Part shown: positions 18,334-26,163 of the stretch, piece after piece | How positions within the stretch are numbered: the stretch's first letter is position 1 | How the letters are laid out: the number at the start of each line of letters is the position of its first letter | From: Chloroflexota bacterium | Lineage (GTDB): Bacteria; Chloroflexota; Anaerolineae; UBA1429 | DNA: 59,970 nt | Assembly (NCBI GenBank): GCA_012719135.1 | Contig: JAAYAW010000052.1 | Span: 1 to 59,970 of the forward strand | Reading direction: 5' to 3' | The notes under the pieces: generated by a model | What the model was told of the DNA's origin: nothing | What the model saw: the letters and a program-made list of their open reading frames with translations, nothing else | The model's database searches: none | Translations under genes and position numbers: made by a program

Positions 18334-19293
18334 TCACCTAAATATGGCACATGCACCCGGAATACCCCCTACCGATTGTGCTTCCAGCACGGCGTTTGCG
18401 ATGGCGCGCGCCATCACCACAGCCGCCATCTCCGCCAGGAGCACCGGCTCGCCATCGACCTGATCGGTGGCCAATGCAAAGATCGTGTCCCCATCGTACA
18501 GCGTGTGCGCTGGCCGAACCACCCTCGCCAGCCCATCGTGCCCCGCGTGCGCCATCCGGTTGGCCCCGGAAACATCCAGCCTGGCGTTGGTAGCCAGGGT
18601 GCCAATGACGGTATTCCCCAGCAACGTATCGCTCGTACGGGCAGCCGGATCCAGCACGCTGAGCCATCCGCCGTCCGGCGCGCGCGCTCCGGCCAGAACC
18701 GTCCCCGTCTCGGGGTCCAGGATGTTCCCCAGGGCGTTCACGGCCACGAGCGCCCCCACAACGACATCTCCCCGCCGCAGGCTGGCCATCCCCAGGCCAC
18801 CCTTCATGGCGCAGGACATGCCAGCGAACTTGCCTACGGTAGCACCCATTCCCGCGCCGACGTTCCCCTGTTCAACCGCCCCATCCGTGGCCGACCGGGC
18901 GGCGGCATACCCCATAGCCGCGTCGGGACGGATGACGGCGCTCCCAAAGGAGAGATCGTACAACACCGCCGCCGGCAGAATGGGCACTCGAGCAGACCCG
19001 CTGTCGAAACCGACTCCTTCTTCCTCAAGATGGCGCATCACCCCATCGGCGGCTGCCAGGCCGAAGGCACTTCCTCCCGTCAGCAGGATCCCATGGATAC
19101 GCCCCACGAGCATCCCTGGCTGAAGTAGTGCCGTCTCCCGGGTTCCCGGTGCATAGCCCCGCACAACACCACTCGCGACACACCCCTGCGGCGGGCACAG
19201 GATGACCGTACAGCCGGTGTAGGCTTCACGGTCGGTGGCCTGGCCCACGCGGATCCTCGCGACATCTGTGATGCTGCCGGCGTATCTAGCCAT
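18334..19293 (-). CDS. P1-family (DmpA/BapA-like) aminopeptidase/amidase
   Basis: A 319-residue self-processing N-terminal-nucleophile hydrolase of the DmpA (S58/P1) family. Seen: ILLTGGSAFGLAAADGV, NVGAGMGATVGKF, MKGGLG, and the candidate processing segment GTLATNARLD late in the chain. Family members cleave N-terminal residues or beta-peptides; some act on amide bonds near pantothenate-like compounds. It is the last gene of the ECF/CoA operon and overlaps coaBC by 8 bp, so a role in releasing beta-alanine or pantothenate from peptides is plausible but unproven. Confidence 0.87.
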   Translation of the reverse strand: MARYAGSITDVARIRVGQATDREAYTGCTVILCPPQGCVASGVVRGYAPGTRETALLQPGMLVGRIHGILLTGGSAFGLAAADGVMRHLEEEGVGFDSGSARVPILPAAVLYDLSFGSAVIRPDAAMGYAAARSATDGAVEQGNVGAGMGATVGKFAGMSCAMKGGLGMASLRRGDVVVGALVAVNALGNILDPETGTVLAGARAPDGGWLSVLDPAARTSDTLLGNTVIGTLATNARLDVSGANRMAHAGHDGLARVVRPAHTLYDGDTIFALATDQVDGEPVLLAEMAAVVMARAIANAVLEAQSVGGIPGACAIFR

Positions 19294-20503
19294 AGCGCTC
19301 GCTCCACATGCCGTGCACCCGCTCCCAGATCCGCTCGGCGACCTCGAATTTCGACATCAACGGCAGAGTCACAGGAGCGGCATCGGACGCCAGGAGAACA
19401 ACGCGATTGTCCTCCACCTCAAACCCGGCATCGGTTGCCGACACATCGTTCGCCACCAGCAGATCGAGCCTCTTATGCGAGAGCTTCTGCGAGGCATTAG
19501 CGATCAGATCCTGCGTTTCGGCAGCAAAGCCGACCACGATACGCGGCCATCCATCGGCACGGAGATCGACAACCGAAGCCAGGATGTCGCGGGTTCGCTC
19601 CAACGAAAGAGTCAATCCCGCTTCGCTCTTCTTGATCTTTTCTGGCGCAGCGGACACAGGCCGGTAATCCGCCACAGCCGCTGCCATCACGAGCACATCG
19701 GTGTTCTCTCGTTCCCCGAGGACGGCGACGGCCATCTCCTCCGCGGTCCGCACGGCGACCTGGCGAACGCCATACACCCGGCCCAGTGCCGTCGGTGCAC
19801 TTATGAGGGTGACTGTCGCTCCCAGGTCTCGTGCGGCCTCCGCCAGTGCATATCCCATCCGGCCTGACGAGCGATTGGTGAGGTGCCGAACCGGATCCAG
19901 AGGCTCCTGCGTGCCCCCTGCCGTGATGAGCACCCGCATCCCGGCCAGCGGCCCCCGGCCCCCCAGTGTCTGCCGAATGGCGGCCAGGATCGTCTCCGTG
20001 GCAGGGAGCCTGCCCCGTCCGATTCGCCCGGAGGCCAATCTTCCCTCCTCCGGCGGTATGATCACCGCACCACGCGCCTCCAATGTGCGAACGTTCGCCA
20101 GAGTCGCGGCGTGCGCCCACATGTCCGCGTCCATCGCGGGCGCCAGCACCAGCGGAGCGGTGGTTGCCAGCACGGTGGTGGTCAGGAGGTTATCCGCCAG
20201 GCCTGTGGCCAGCTTGGAGATCGTATTGGCCGTAGCCGGGGCGATTACCACCAGATCCGCTTTCTTGGCCAGCGAGATGTGCGCCATATCGGTGCTATCC
20301 AGCAAACGGAACATATCGGTAGACACGGGTCGCTGGGTGATCGTCTGGAACGGAAGCGGTGTCACAAAGGCGAGCGCCGCCTCCGTCATGATCACGTCCA
20401 CGTGCGCCCCCGCCTGCACAAGCTTGCTGCACAGATCCACGGCTTTGTACGCCGCTATCCCGCCGGTCACGCCCAGCACAATGTTCTTTCCCTGCAGGAT
20501 CAT
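19286..20503 (-). CDS. coaBC: Bifunctional phosphopantothenoylcysteine decarboxylase / phosphopantothenate-cysteine ligase
   Basis: About 405 residues covering two steps of CoA synthesis. The N-terminal flavoprotein half (CoaC) has GVTGGIAAYKAVDL, PATANTISKLATGLADN and PAMDADMW. The C-terminal half (CoaB) begins near ITAGGTQEPLDPVRHLTNRS and has the SSGRMGYALA segment. The start is the ATG of MILQGKNIV, overlapping the coaX stop by 4 bp; the longer reading is rejected because it intrudes on coaX. It lies mid-operon, upstream of the P1 peptidase. Confidence 0.95.
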   Translation of the reverse strand: MILQGKNIVLGVTGGIAAYKAVDLCSKLVQAGAHVDVIMTEAALAFVTPLPFQTITQRPVSTDMFRLLDSTDMAHISLAKKADLVVIAPATANTISKLATGLADNLLTTTVLATTAPLVLAPAMDADMWAHAATLANVRTLEARGAVIIPPEEGRLASGRIGRGRLPATETILAAIRQTLGGRGPLAGMRVLITAGGTQEPLDPVRHLTNRSSGRMGYALAEAARDLGATVTLISAPTALGRVYGVRQVAVRTAEEMAVAVLGERENTDVLVMAAAVADYRPVSAAPEKIKKSEAGLTLSLERTRDILASVVDLRADGWPRIVVGFAAETQDLIANASQKLSHKRLDLLVANDVSATDAGFEVEDNRVVLLASDAAPVTLPLMSKFEVAERIWERVHGMWSERYG

Positions 20504-21273
20504 CTCGCCCCCCGGTTCAGATCGTAGATGATTCGCATGCCCTTCAGGGTAAGCCATGGATCTACGAACTCGATCACCGGCGTCTCTGCCGCGATGATCT
20601 CGGCCAGGCCTCCGGTGGCGATAACGCGCATGTTGGGCCCCAGTTCCGCGCGGAAACGGGCGACCAGGCCTTCAACCAGGCCCACATAGCCAAAGAGGAT
20701 CCCCGAGCGCATGGCATCCACGGTGTTCCCTCCGATCGCGCGGGGCGGACGCTGGAGGTCAACCCGTGGCAGCTTGGCGGTGCGCTGGAACAGCGCCTCC
20801 GCCGCCACCCGGACGCCGGGAGCGATGGCACCACCGAGATACTCACCCTGAGCCGAGAGAGCATCAAAGGTCGTGCCTGTACCAAAGTCCACGATGCAGG
20901 CCGGCCCGCCGTATTGCTGGTATGCCGCCGCCACGTTGATGACGCGATCCGCTCCGACTTCCTGCGGGCGATCGTAGCGAATGGACACCCCCGTGCGGGT
21001 TCCCGTACCCACCACCATCGGCTCGTGACCGAAATAGGCACGAACCATCTCCTGGAAACGGTCCGTGAGAGGTGGCACCACGCTGGCTATGATCACATCC
21101 TCAACCTGCTGAGCATGGTATCCAGCGTGCGCGAAAAGCCCCAGAACCACCATGGCGTACTCATCGGGCATGCGATCATGGTCGGTACTGATGCGCCAGT
21201 GAGTCAGCAGATCGTCACCGCTGTACAGACCCAGCACGATGTTCGTATTGCCCACATCGATGCACAGGAGCAT
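20500..21273 (-). CDS. coaX: Type III pantothenate kinase
   Basis: A 257-residue ASKHA-fold kinase that phosphorylates pantothenate, the first step of CoA synthesis, without feedback inhibition by CoA in studied members. Seen: N-terminal CIDVGNTNIVLGLY, a central VDFGTGTTFDAL with the conserved aspartate, and VIATGGLAEII. A GGGAGGGA ribosome site precedes the ATG. It follows the ECF substrate-binding gene by 21 bp and is coupled to coaBC, which supports pantothenate as the transported vitamin. Confidence 0.94.
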   Translation of the reverse strand: MLLCIDVGNTNIVLGLYSGDDLLTHWRISTDHDRMPDEYAMVVLGLFAHAGYHAQQVEDVIIASVVPPLTDRFQEMVRAYFGHEPMVVGTGTRTGVSIRYDRPQEVGADRVINVAAAYQQYGGPACIVDFGTGTTFDALSAQGEYLGGAIAPGVRVAAEALFQRTAKLPRVDLQRPPRAIGGNTVDAMRSGILFGYVGLVEGLVARFRAELGPNMRVIATGGLAEIIAAETPVIEFVDPWLTLKGMRIIYDLNRGAR

Positions 21274-21294: not shown

Positions 21295-21996
21295 CTAGAG
21301 CTTGGATCGGTTGCGCCCCACCTGTCGGATCGCGCTGACGACCGCCACCACGATGATTGCAGAGACAACGGCCTCAGGGATCCCCTGCATGAAGCCTATG
21401 CTCAGGGCGACTTCGGGCGTTATCCCCGCCACCTGGCGTACCACCGCCGCGCCCAGAACCAGCACGGTGTTTGCGAGTGAGCCCGTTATTGCGGCAGCGG
21501 CCAGCCCGACTGCTGCCGTATCTCCTCTTCCCAGCCACCAGACTCCGAAACCGGCAGCCGACAACGCCAGAACTGCAATCGCGATACCCAGCCACAACAC
21601 GGACTGACTGACCACATAGGCGGCGGCCAGCACCGCCACCGCCAGCACCAGCAGCACGGCGGTCAATGCGGGCCGGCGCGCGCGCCGAAGGCCGTAGTAG
21701 ACCCACGCAGCCGCGACACCGATTAGCAGCCGCGGCAGTATGATCACGAATGGATCCTTAACGGGAACCAGCGGGCTCAGGAAGCTGGCGAAACCAAATC
21801 CCAGAGAGACGATGAGCCCGACGAGCGGCCCCTCAAGGATCCCGCCGATGATCGCGGGGATGTGGGCAATGGTGGCACTCCCGGCAGGGGTCGGGACCGG
21901 TATAAAGCCCACGGGCGTCAGCGCGAGAAGCAGCGTTACCGCCAGCAGCATGCCGGCTGTAACAATGCGGCGGATGCTTCGTTCCTGTTGTTCCAT
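21295..21996 (-). CDS. ECF transporter substrate-binding (S) component, candidate pantothenate type
   Basis: A 233-residue membrane protein with about six helices. The N-terminal basic stretch leads into ALTPVGFIPVPTPAGSATIAHIPAI and GPLVGLIVSLGFGFASF, typical of S components of energy-coupling-factor transporters. A GGGGGAG ribosome site precedes the ATG. It lies between ecfT (35 bp) and coaX (21 bp), so pantothenate (PanT role) is the best substrate guess from context and general resemblance. The central helices (about 110-150) are unusually Ala/Val-rich and less conserved-looking. Confidence 0.75.
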   Translation of the reverse strand: MEQQERSIRRIVTAGMLLAVTLLLALTPVGFIPVPTPAGSATIAHIPAIIGGILEGPLVGLIVSLGFGFASFLSPLVPVKDPFVIILPRLLIGVAAAWVYYGLRRARRPALTAVLLVLAVAVLAAAYVVSQSVLWLGIAIAVLALSAAGFGVWWLGRGDTAAVGLAAAAITGSLANTVLVLGAAVVRQVAGITPEVALSIGFMQGIPEAVVSAIIVVAVVSAIRQVGRNRSKL

Positions 21997-22031: not shown

Positions 22032-22868
22032 CTAGAGCACAACCACAATCACCAGAAGGCCCACACTGATCGCCAGTGAGATCAGATCCTTTGCGTTCAG
22101 GCGCAACTCTCTCATGTAGGTGCGCCCGCGTCCGCCCTGGTAGCACCGCGCCAGAAGCGCCGTGCTGATTTCATCGACCCGTTGCAGAGCGTCGGCAAAC
22201 AGAGGCACCACGAGAGCCGCGGTTCTGCGCGCATTGCGCGCCAACTGCCAGGGCCTCTCAGGCCCGCCGGTGATGTCACGAGCCAACTGAGCGCGCTGCA
22301 CCGCCTCCAGTTCTTCGCCCAGGATCGGCAGAAAGCGCAAAGCGATCGCTCCGGTCAACGCAAGTTCGTGCCCCGGCAGGCCGATGCGGTTCAGAGGCAG
22401 CAGAAGCCGCTCCATTCCTGAGGCCAGGGCGCTGGCAGACGTTGTGGCGGTGAGCAGACCAACCAGCATTACCAGGGAGAGTAGCCGGACTATGGCGATC
22501 GCCGCGCCAATGACTCGCCCGAGTGATACGTCAGCCGCACCGACCTCCAACACGCCGATATCCGCTCCAGGCATCGCCGGATCCTGGTATCCAAAGAGCA
22601 ACTGGGAAACCGCCAGCACCGCCAGCACCGGGAGGACGGGGCGCAACACCGCTCCCGCCGCTCCCCTGGGCAGACGGGCGGCTCTGTAGGCGGCCGCAAT
22701 GAGCAGGAACAGCGCAGCCGTCACCCACCAGCGGGAGGCCAGGACGATGGCCACCGTCCAGAGCCCAAGACTACATAGCTTGACCCGCGGATCCAGCGTA
22801 TGAACCACCGAATCACCGGGCCAGAACCGCCCCAGGCTCGCGTTCCTCAGCGATGCAGCACGTGCCAC
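22032..22868 (-). CDS. ecfT: ECF transporter transmembrane component EcfT
   Basis: A 278-residue membrane protein with an N-terminal VHTLDPRVKL segment, several helices, and the coupling region RNARRTAALVVPLFADALQRVDEISTALLARCY, whose short basic Ala-Arg stretches fit the EcfT coupling helices that contact the ATPases. The start is a GTG after AGGAGG, overlapping the end of ecfA2 by 22 bp. It scaffolds the two ATPases and the S component. Confidence 0.9.
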   Translation of the reverse strand: MARAASLRNASLGRFWPGDSVVHTLDPRVKLCSLGLWTVAIVLASRWWVTAALFLLIAAAYRAARLPRGAAGAVLRPVLPVLAVLAVSQLLFGYQDPAMPGADIGVLEVGAADVSLGRVIGAAIAIVRLLSLVMLVGLLTATTSASALASGMERLLLPLNRIGLPGHELALTGAIALRFLPILGEELEAVQRAQLARDITGGPERPWQLARNARRTAALVVPLFADALQRVDEISTALLARCYQGGRGRTYMRELRLNAKDLISLAISVGLLVIVVVL

Positions 22869-23710
22869 AGCGCCTCCTCGACCTCCCCGTCGGAGAGCAG
22901 ACTCTGCCCGATGGGGATCCCATGTTCACGCAGGTCCTGAGCCAGCTCCGTGGCCTCCGGAACGGTGAGCCCGCAGCGCTCCATCAGGCTCGCATCGCCC
23001 AGCACCTCGCGCACAGCGCCACTCGCTACGGTGTGCCCTTTGACCAAGACCGACACAGAGTCTGCCATGTCGACCACTTCATCCATCTCGTTTGTGACCA
23101 GGACGATGGTGAGCCCTTGCTCAGACTGTAGTCGGTGCAACACCTCGTGAACCTGGCTGCGCCCGACCTGATCGAGCCCCGCCGTCGCCTCATCCAGCAC
23201 CAGGATGCGCGGTTGCATGGCCAGCACGCCGGCCAACGCGGCGCGACGCATCTCACCTCCGCTAAGCGCAAACGTGCGCCGGTCAACGAACGTCTCAAAG
23301 TCTAGCCCTACGGCCTCCATTGCCCAGCGCACGCGTCCCCTCAGGGATTCACCGCTCAAGCCCATCTGGCGCGGACCGTAGGCGATGTCATCTCCGACAT
23401 ACCGCTCAAAGAGTTGCTGATGCGGATGTTGCATGACCAGGCCAACCTGGGAGCGCAGTGCGCTCAAGTCGGCAGCCGGGTCGTGAGTGTCCAGGCCCAG
23501 GATGACCGCACGGCCACCCTCCTCCGGACGGAGCAGACCGTTCACGAAGGACACCAGCGTGGATTTGCCGGCACCGCTCGGGCCCACCAGCGCGACGATC
23601 TCTCCCTCGCTCACGGACAGGCTGGCGTCCACCAGCGCCGTCGCGGCCAGTTCTGTACCTGCCAGGTATGTATACGACAGGTGGCTCAGCTGAACGATGG
23701 GAGCGCTCAT
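22847..23710 (-). CDS. ecfA2: ECF transporter ATPase EcfA2
   Basis: ABC ATPase of about 287 residues. Walker A GPSGAGKST, Q-loop MQHPHQQLF, signature LSGGEMRRAALAG and Walker B ILVLDEATAGLD are all present, with a C-terminal extension of about 50 residues common in EcfA proteins. The start is the ATG of MSAPIVQLS, overlapping the ecfA1 stop by 4 bp. It probably pairs with EcfA1 as a heterodimer. Confidence 0.92.
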   Translation of the reverse strand: MSAPIVQLSHLSYTYLAGTELAATALVDASLSVSEGEIVALVGPSGAGKSTLVSFVNGLLRPEEGGRAVILGLDTHDPAADLSALRSQVGLVMQHPHQQLFERYVGDDIAYGPRQMGLSGESLRGRVRWAMEAVGLDFETFVDRRTFALSGGEMRRAALAGVLAMQPRILVLDEATAGLDQVGRSQVHEVLHRLQSEQGLTIVLVTNEMDEVVDMADSVSVLVKGHTVASGAVREVLGDASLMERCGLTVPEATELAQDLREHGIPIGQSLLSDGEVEEALWHVLHR

Positions 23711-24552
23711 CCCTCTCCCTCCCATAGCGCCACCACTCGTCGAACCAGCTCCTCGGCAGTGACGACGTCGCGCCCCAATTCAAGGCCCCGCCGGGCCAGC
23801 CCGCGCTCGACGGCCGCGGCAGGAGGAAGCGCCAACCCGTAGCCTTTGAGCGCATCATCCCGGGCAAAGACCTCTGCGGGGGCGCCCGTAAGCGCGATCT
23901 GGCCGCGTTCCATCACCACCACTCGCTTTGCGCGCGTCACCTCTGTCATATGATGCGTGACTGTGATGATGGTCATCCCGGCGCTGTATAGTTGCGTGAG
24001 CAGAGCCAGCAGACTGCCGCGGGACCTCGGATCCAGCGTCGCTGTAGCCTCATCGAGCACGAGGCACTGCGGCTCCATCGCCAGCATGGCGGCTACTGCG
24101 AGGCGCGCCTTTTCGCCTGAGGAAAGCAGGTGCGGGTCTCGAAGCTCCTGGCCGCACATTCCGACGCGTTCGATGGCGGAAGCAACGCGTCTGCGGATCT
24201 CTGCCGGCGGGACGCCAAGGTTCTCCGGGCCAAAGGCGACTTCGTCCTCCACCGAACTCGTCACGAACTGATTGTCCGGGTTCTGCAACACCATTCCGAC
24301 GGTCGCGCGGATGCCGACGAGGGCTGCCGCATCACGCGTGCTCGCTCCGTTCACACGCACGTCCCCAGAGGAGGGAGACAGCAGTCCGCTGAGGCACTTG
24401 GCCAGAGTCGACTTCCCTGACCCGTTCGGTCCGACGATCGCCAGATACTCGCCGCGCACGATATTGAGGCTCACGCCTCGCAACGCCTCGATGCTTTCTC
24501 CAGCGTTGCCGTATCGATAGTGCAGATCGCGAACGCTGATAAACGCGTCCAT
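23707..24552 (-). CDS. ecfA1: ECF transporter ATPase EcfA1
   Basis: ABC ATPase of 281 residues with Walker A GPNGSGKST, Q-loop LQNPDNQFV, signature LSSGEKARLAVA and Walker B CLVLDEATATLD. The start is the ATG of MDAFISVRD; the in-frame upstream codons pass through a terminator hairpin and are rejected. It is the first gene of the seven-gene ECF/CoA operon. Its leader contains a strong intrinsic terminator whose T-tract ends 12 bases before the ATG, so expression should depend on readthrough. Confidence 0.93.
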   Translation of the reverse strand: MDAFISVRDLHYRYGNAGESIEALRGVSLNIVRGEYLAIVGPNGSGKSTLAKCLSGLLSPSSGDVRVNGASTRDAAALVGIRATVGMVLQNPDNQFVTSSVEDEVAFGPENLGVPPAEIRRRVASAIERVGMCGQELRDPHLLSSGEKARLAVAAMLAMEPQCLVLDEATATLDPRSRGSLLALLTQLYSAGMTIITVTHHMTEVTRAKRVVVMERGQIALTGAPAEVFARDDALKGYGLALPPAAAVERGLARRGLELGRDVVTAEELVRRVVALWEGEG

Positions 24553-24564
24553 ACCGCCCCCACC

Positions 24565-24597
24565 AAAAAAAAGAGCCCCGCGCAGGACGCGCGGGGC
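24565..24597 (-). terminator. Intrinsic terminator (attenuator) in the ecfA1 leader
   Basis: On the minus strand, a perfect 9-bp stem GCCCCGCGC/GCGCGGGGC with loop GTCCT is followed by TC and eight T residues. No minus-strand gene lies upstream, so the only transcript it can stop is the one starting at the promoter at 24712-24739. Confidence 0.85.
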
Positions 24598-24705
24598 ACC
24601 ATCAGGCAAAGAACCAGGCCATTCTCCTGCCGTCTCGGTCGCAGCGCGATCCAAGCGACGTGTTGTCGGAACCCGCAAGGCTGGGCGCCTGTCGGTCGCC
24701 CGCTG
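24565..24705 (-). promoter_or_regulatory. Attenuator leader of the ECF/CoA operon, possible new riboswitch or peptide attenuator
   Basis: About 140 bases of leader. A 5' segment GCGGGCGACC (24703-24694) can pair with GGTGCCCCGC (24600-24591), 8 of 10 positions, which would break the terminator stem and act as antiterminator. Other local stems are GGGCG/CGCCC and GTCGC/GCGAC. A six-codon open frame encoding MAWFFA (24602-24622) ends right before the terminator. No known riboswitch consensus was recognised. Confidence 0.5.
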
Positions 24706-24711
24706 CCATGG

Positions 24712-24739
24712 ATTCTAGCACCGGAGAAGGAGCCGTCAA
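24712..24739 (-). promoter_or_regulatory. Promoter of the ECF/CoA operon
   Basis: -35 TTGACG, 16-bp spacer, -10 TAGAAT on the minus strand. Confidence 0.65.
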
Positions 24740-24805: not shown

Positions 24806-24852
24806 CGCGTTGGCGTTCGCTAGCGGAAGAATCCAGAGCAGGAGATGCAAAG

Positions 24853-26163
24853 ATGCCGAAAATCACCATCGTCGGTGCGGGAAGCCACGTTTTCGCGCGA
24901 AGGCTCATTGCCGATGCGCTCCAGTGGCCGTCGCTGAGCGACTCTACGATCGCGCTGATGGACATCAACCGCGAAAGCCTCGATACCATGGCCGCCCTCG
25001 CCCGGAAGATGGTCCGGCAGCTGGGCGTCAATGCCCGTGTTGAGGCCACGACTGACCTTGAAGAGGCGCTCGCCGGCGCGGACTATGTCTCCGTGTCCAT
25101 TCGCGTGGGCGACTCTCACAACAATGTCTCGGTTCCGGCCCGCTACGGCATCCGCCATTCCGTCGGAGATACGATGGGCCCCGGCGGAGTCTTTTACTTT
25201 CTTCGAAATGCGCCGGCCGTTATCGAGATCGCACGCACGATGGAGAAGGTTGCCCCCGGCGCGTTGATGCTGAACTACACGAACCCCATGGTCATGATCT
25301 CCTGGGCCATCAAGGAACTGACCGGAATCCGGTACGTGGGGCTCTGCCACTCTGTGCAGGGCACGGCCCAGACCATGGCCGAGTACCTCCAGGAACCCTT
25401 TGAGGATGTCTCTTATTGGGCGGCGGGCATCAACCACATGGCCTGGTTCCTCAAGTACCACGTCAGGGGAGAGGATGCTTATCCCCGCCTGTTCAAGGCC
25501 ATGGAGGACCCCGATATCTACAACCGCGATATCGTCAAGTTTGAGGTCATGAAGTACTTTGGCGCCTTTGTCTCCGAGTCCTCCATCCACATGTCCGAGT
25601 ACGTGCCCTACTTCCGGCGTACGCAGGAACTGATCGACCGGCACACGCATGAAAAGATGTGGGGCGTGGGCCCGATCGCAAGCATGAGCCGTGAGGAGAT
25701 GCTCGCGCTATACGCGAAAAGGCGGGAGCAGGCCGATCGCGAAATGCGCGAGCTGGCCTACAACGATGCCGAGGTGCCCATCGATCTCTCCCATGAGTAC
25801 TTTTCCCGGATACTGAACGCAATCGAGACGAACGTGCCGTATACGTTCAACGGGAATGTGCCCAACAACGGGCTCATCGCGAACCTGCCGGCCCATGCTG
25901 TCGTTGAAGTCCCGATCATGACGGACGCCATGGGTTTGCACCCCTGCCAGGTGGGCGCTCTGCCCCCTGCCCTCGCAGCGCTCAACAGCAGCAATCTGTA
26001 CGTGCAGGAACTCGCTGTCAAGGGCTTGATCGAGCGGAACCGGGAGTACATCTACCAGGCACTCCAGGTGGACCCCCTGACGGCATCGCTGCTTCCGCTG
26101 GACAAGATACGCGAGATGACCGACGAGATGTTCGCCGCTGACGCCGAGTACATGCCCTTCTAG
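24853..26163 (+). CDS. Glycoside hydrolase family 4 (alpha-galactosidase/alpha-glucosidase type)
   Basis: A 436-residue NAD+ and Mn2+ dependent glycosidase. The N-terminal GAGSHVFAR nucleotide-binding loop, NYTNPM, the metal-binding cysteine region GLCHSVQ and GINHMAWF are all GH4 hallmarks. CHS in this position is common in alpha-galactosidases (MelA type). The start is the ATG of MPKITIVG, after AGGAG; the longer frame overlaps the divergent ecfA1 leader. It is followed 18 bp later by galactonate dehydratase, which supports galactoside use. No signal peptide, so cytoplasmic. Confidence 0.9.
   Translation: MPKITIVGAGSHVFARRLIADALQWPSLSDSTIALMDINRESLDTMAALARKMVRQLGVNARVEATTDLEEALAGADYVSVSIRVGDSHNNVSVPARYGIRHSVGDTMGPGGVFYFLRNAPAVIEIARTMEKVAPGALMLNYTNPMVMISWAIKELTGIRYVGLCHSVQGTAQTMAEYLQEPFEDVSYWAAGINHMAWFLKYHVRGEDAYPRLFKAMEDPDIYNRDIVKFEVMKYFGAFVSESSIHMSEYVPYFRRTQELIDRHTHEKMWGVGPIASMSREEMLALYAKRREQADREMRELAYNDAEVPIDLSHEYFSRILNAIETNVPYTFNGNVPNNGLIANLPAHAVVEVPIMTDAMGLHPCQVGALPPALAALNSSNLYVQELAVKGLIERNREYIYQALQVDPLTASLLPLDKIREMTDEMFAADAEYMPF

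Follow-up and report, generated by a model that had tools for sequence, protein, structure and literature searches.

An operon for pantothenate uptake and CoA synthesis (EcfA1A2T-PanT-CoaX-CoaBC-S58), found in an apparent pantothenate auxotroph, is probably controlled by a transcription attenuator in which the pan motif acts as the sensor. The leader of this operon belongs to an RNA class already published as a candidate, here with a new kind of target. It lies in a window (the whole stretch of DNA that was analysed) of 59,970 nt from a Chloroflexota bacterium (Anaerolineae; UBA1429; GCA_012719135.1, contig JAAYAW010000052.1, positions 1 to 59,970). The identity of the leader, its covariation, the placement of promoter and terminator, the homology to PanT and the absence of panB and panC were computed. 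The features are given in Table 1. In all counts, the class is the class of the window's own genome; loci are labelled L### and genomes G###.

Table 1. Positions in the window of the leader elements and of the genes that follow them.
Feature	Position	Strand	Details
Promoter TTGACG-16-TAGAAT	24712..24739	-	-35 TTGACG 24739-24734; 16-nt spacer; TG-extended -10 TAGAAT 24717-24712; predicted start about 24706
pan motif (RF01749)	24626..24704	-	tandem bulged-A hairpins; predicted mRNA 5' end; 32.7 bits, E 0.0004
pan hairpin 1	24680..24703	-	bulged A 24696 and 24682; GACA loop
pan hairpin 2	24629..24659	-	bulged A 24650 and 24633; core GCUUGGAUC..GACCGAGAC nearly invariant
Possible antiterminator	24591..24703	-	predicted fold; would open pan hairpin 1 and block the terminator arm; pairs 24703-24699 with 24595-24591, 24696-24693 with 24601-24598, 24691-24687 with 24607-24603
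Intrinsic terminator	24565..24597	-	stem 24597-24575 (9-10 bp, 9 G-C); T8 24572-24565; -22.6 kcal/mol
ecfA1, ECF ATPase	23707..24552	-	TIGR04520 3e-94; PF00005; ATG at 24552, 12 bases 3' of the T tract
ecfA2, ECF ATPase	22847..23725	-	ORF list; homology
ecfT	22032..22868	-	PF02361
PanT-like S component (pantothenate)	21295..21996	-	PF12822; profile matches to PanT structures
coaX, type III pantothenate kinase	20500..21273	-	PF03309 1.7e-77
coaBC	19286..20557	-	PF04127 and PF02441; start probably inside this ORF
S58 (DmpA/P1 type) peptidase	18334..19293	-	PF03576 1e-41

Identity and conservation of the leader

Judged by its sequence and predicted structure, the leader is the known but unexplained pan motif and not a new RNA family. 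The earlier note had recognised no known riboswitch consensus and had suggested a new vitamin- or CoA-sensing RNA; it had not considered pan. When Rfam was scanned by E-value, RF01749 matched the leader over its full length (79 nt) with a score 3.5 bits under the gathering cut-off of the family (32.7 vs 36.2). At the gathering threshold, Rfam retrieved only a tRNA in the window and missed the pan leader. Four sister loci in the ECF context lie above the cut-off (L003 with 38.7, L026 with 39.3, L028 with 36.7 and L044 with 36.3 bits). The class model R1, run on the window's own genome, gave the leader 66.6 bits (E 4e-11) as its sole match, the next best standing at 0.48. Other weak Rfam matches on the leader, including suhB, ClpQY and Leu_leader, were rejected as terminator look-alikes that rest on the GC hairpin and the T tract.

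In its first description (Weinberg et al. 2010, PMC2864571), the pan motif, defined by two hairpins with bulged A's, precedes operons for panB, panC or aspartate decarboxylase. It has also been located ahead of panB-panC in Paenibacillus (PMC5670726). The window leader shares with the published motif the tandem hairpins (here set 20 nt apart), the two bulged A's in each, the core sequence, the position in the 5' UTR and the pathway. It differs in scoring under the cut-off and in preceding uptake and CoA genes, with ecfA1 first, instead of a synthesis operon starting with panB, panC or aspartate decarboxylase, in a genome lacking panB and panC. This is a difference of context, not of RNA.

Both hairpins, bulged A's included, form the window leader's own minimum-energy fold. 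The folding energy of this single leader does not differ significantly from that of shuffles (z = -1.0). The evidence for structure is comparative. In a 23-member alignment from the class, 96% of the cells are paired and 11 of the 22 pairs show compensatory change, a result that none of 500 shuffles equalled; sliding the partner by one column lowers pairing to about 30%. The conserved structure that the earlier note had proposed to look for with a covariance model is thus present in related leaders. Covariation is equally seen in the 33 ECF-type leaders taken by themselves, with compensatory change in seven of the 10 pairs of helix 1, in an alignment that was fitted to the model and so leans towards it. 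Each of the four bulged A's is kept in at least 32 of these 33 leaders, and the terminal loops are unconserved.

The class-built model found pan in 106 of 396 genomes, with one copy in the window's genome. Three genomes that seemed to contradict the link between pan and ECF operons were each explained on inspection. The contig of G001, from the same genus, starts inside pan hairpin 2, just 5' of ecfA1 and with paired changes, and the apparent absence of pan is a contig end cutting through it. In G006, a diverged leader resembling pan (17 bits) and a terminator precede ecfA1, while the best ECF locus of G011 is another, non-PanT one.

Genes downstream of pan and probable pantothenate auxotrophy

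We classified the genes downstream of the 81 pan matches of the class. ECF operons, spanning 14 families, account for 33 of them, and panB/panC operons (panB-panE-panC-panD, often ending in coaX) for another 33. The rest are six Opp/Dpp-type ABC transporters, four coaX genes alone, two PhnD-like loci and three matches with too little DNA. Where there is enough DNA, coaX is in the operon at 21 of 27 ECF loci and 15 of 22 synthesis loci; some pan operons lack it. In another collection, made up of named genomes, an exact search for the core of hairpin 2 retrieved 119 loci, nearly all before pantothenate/CoA genes, in Chloroflexota, Clostridia, Desulfosporosinus, deltaproteobacteria, Nitrospinia and others. 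Ten of these precede ECF operons, and two are the loci in MAGs labelled Clostridia that are described below.

The window's genome is 99% complete, and neither panB nor panC was found in it. More generally, panC is found in none of the 41 genomes with an ECF, Opp/Dpp-type or PhnD-like locus downstream of pan, against a base rate of 109 in 298 class genomes. The presence of panC alongside synthesis-type loci is partly a matter of definition and was left out as evidence. Genomes with a PanT-like S component encode panC in 3 cases out of 105 (102 lack it), those without in 106 out of 193. A detectable pan lies upstream in only 43 of 133 PanT-positive genomes. We had also considered panB as a marker of auxotrophy and dropped it, since many panC-less genomes (G002, G003, G007-G010, G012, G016, G042, G043 and others) carry a second PanB-like gene, with a lower score (PF02548, about 335-357 bits) and not next to pan. 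Hence, panC was taken as the marker.

The order ecfA1-ecfA2-ecfT-S-coaX-coaBC-S58 peptidase, already proposed in the earlier note with a P1 peptidase as its last gene, was confirmed by Pfam and NCBIfam. When searched as a profile, the pan-linked S components match PanT of Lactobacillus brevis (4RFS, 1.8e-20) and of L. delbrueckii (6ZG3, 1e-11), and more weakly the riboflavin component RibU (8e-4). The equivalents of L. brevis PanT R95 and N131 are invariant among them; mutational work quoted in PMC7755397 found both residues important for pantothenate binding. Because of the profile match and the invariant R and N, the S component of the window is very probably PanT. Compared with the L. brevis and L. 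delbrueckii systems, it has F in place of W64, a further pantothenate-binding residue, as do the other pan-linked S components, and its operon carries its own EcfA1A2T together with coaX and coaBC.

Some pan loci have other neighbours. In six loci (L078, L088, L100, L119, L120 and L132) pan precedes Opp/Dpp-type ABC transporters, and panC was not found in those genomes. The loci that we checked encode a binding protein and two permeases, several also coaX, and they may be importers, so far unrecognised, of pantothenate or of some CoA precursor. At L104 and L113, in two genomes with no panC found, the gene after pan encodes a PhnD-like binding protein, and those that follow are not obviously parts of a transporter. 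Two genomes have two pan motifs. In G036 these lie before the ECF operon and before coaX-coaBC-S58 (L082 and L083), and in G038 both are on the same contig before an Opp/Dpp-type transporter operon (L120). Two MAGs labelled Clostridia carry pan in front of birA, a gene for a PanT-like S component and coaX, either directly (L216) or with one further gene in between (L225), and a terminator-like hairpin and T run come after pan. The S58 peptidase recurs in pan operons. It follows coaBC in the window and opens S58-DUF2520-panD-panB-panC operons in Dehalococcoidia (recurrence at L198, L204, L206, L218, L220, L222, L230, L254, L258, L266, L281, L290 and L287). We regard it as a candidate for a new enzyme in the salvage of pantothenate or CoA.

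A possible attenuator

The promoter of the window leader is a good one of the sigma-70 type. A -10 hexamer lies 3-10 nt (mostly 5-6 nt) 5' of pan in 63 of 80 related loci, against 2% in the background. Pan is thus predicted to begin at the transcription start and to form the 5' end of the mRNA. The nearest gene upstream of the leader is divergent (plus strand, start near 24850), and no minus-strand transcription reads in from upstream. By eye, this divergent gene (24850-26163) resembles a family 4 glycosidase, and a gene with a similar start occupies the same place in G006. An intrinsic terminator stands between pan and the start codon in 53 of 78 loci, when about 8 are expected in shuffles, and at the same place in 24 of the 33 ECF-type loci; about 30% of pan loci have none. 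The excess holds in both gene contexts.

In its sequence features, this conserved succession of promoter, leader and terminator before the first gene is the layout typical of a transcription attenuator. The earlier note had placed the same promoter, terminator hairpin and T8 tract 12 bases before ecfA1, with no minus-strand gene upstream. These coordinates were right and the layout recurs in relatives. Its proposal of an attenuator before a pantothenate/CoA ECF operon is supported by the conservation of terminator and promoter and by the PanT homology. TPP riboswitches of the same class likewise place a sensor and then an intrinsic terminator before vitamin genes (terminators in 23 of the 30 loci of our control set). 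They are an unrelated RNA with a known ligand, whereas none is established for pan.

We infer that the leader switches, in which direction and on which signal, as follows. The tandem hairpin pair of pan would act as sensor, with the terminator 12 nt 5' of ecfA1 as output, most likely under feedback control by pantothenate or a downstream product (CoA, phosphopantetheine). When the product is plentiful, the folded pair would be held by a protein or a metabolite, hairpin 1 would stay closed, the terminator would form and the operon would be off. Under shortage, the terminator's 5' arm would be taken up by the first strand of hairpin 1, resulting in read-through. In this scheme, a folded pan would mean off, as feedback control requires.

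Predicted folds of the window leader are consistent with this scheme. Once complete, the leader forms both pan hairpins and the terminator; in a transcript that ends in the terminator loop, 24703-24687 pairs with 24607-24591. Before the 3' arm of the terminator is made, its 5' arm pairs with the hairpin 1 strand with a probability of 0.81. The earlier note had proposed an antiterminator between 24703-24694 and 24600-24591. Its 5' arm corresponds to the first strand of pan hairpin 1. This pairing appears in the predicted fold of the unfinished transcript of the window, but relatives do not keep it at the same position. An own-versus-cross duplex test for antiterminators gave no signal, nor did its partition-function version. 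The test also fails on the TPP riboswitches used as control and is without power; hence, we discarded it as evidence for or against. Across loci, terminator arms are complementary to the 3' strand of hairpin 2 above chance (mean z -0.74, p 2.5e-5), a comparison that was chosen post hoc, is phylogenetically dependent, is absent in the window and serves as a lead only.

What may read pan and what it controls

In our judgement, the chances are evenly balanced that a regulatory protein reads pan, either through a direct effect on the terminator or by holding the hairpins or opening them, with no small molecule contacting the RNA. The two hairpins share their geometry, each strand carrying a bulged A, their terminal loops are unconserved, and a dimeric protein site was suggested for pan when it was described (Weinberg et al. 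2010, PMC2864571). The frequency of coaX in pan operons makes a regulator encoded within the operon conceivable. However, coaX is missing from some of them and no candidate protein has been identified.

Pan may instead be a riboswitch that binds pantothenate, phosphopantothenate, a pantetheine or CoA, an option to which we give rather less credence. Its targets are all related to pantothenate or CoA, in several phyla, and it combines conserved unpaired A's with a terminator-type expression platform. Yet, it is very small, with neither a junction nor a pseudoknot in sight, and the literature that we searched reports neither a ligand nor a reader for this motif described in 2010. We know of no riboswitch for the pantothenate/phosphopantetheine/CoA ligand class. 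It is doubtful that pan directly binds pantothenate, phosphopantetheine or CoA and that its presence on ECF-PanT and Opp/Dpp-type transporters in non-makers marks unrecognised importers of vitamin B5 (pantothenate) or CoA precursors.

It is improbable that the terminator is constitutive or merely sets the expression level, with pan acting elsewhere, e.g. on mRNA stability. In its favour, no conserved alternative pairing could be shown; against it, both gene contexts have a large excess over chance of terminators between pan and the start codon. That the leader is a new RNA class unrelated to pan, as its score under the Rfam cut-off might suggest, is hardly credible, because the alignment reveals a continuous family with above-cut-off members in the same ECF context.

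We retain a pan-controlled attenuator as the probable arrangement. The RNA class itself is published; what is new here is pan on uptake operons in genomes without synthesis genes, which we did not find in the literature searched. The signal of pan has been an open question since 2010 and is now narrowed. Because pan occurs on uptake operons in genomes without panB and panC, the signal would be pantothenate or something downstream such as CoA. Ketopantoate, pantoate and beta-alanine are removed as general signals, and those that are left are directly testable. These results extend the pan regulon from synthesis to transport and assign the role of PanT to a group of Chloroflexota ECF S components. 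They further suggest that pantothenate/CoA salvage is likely to have the Opp/Dpp-type transporter and the S58 peptidase as new components.
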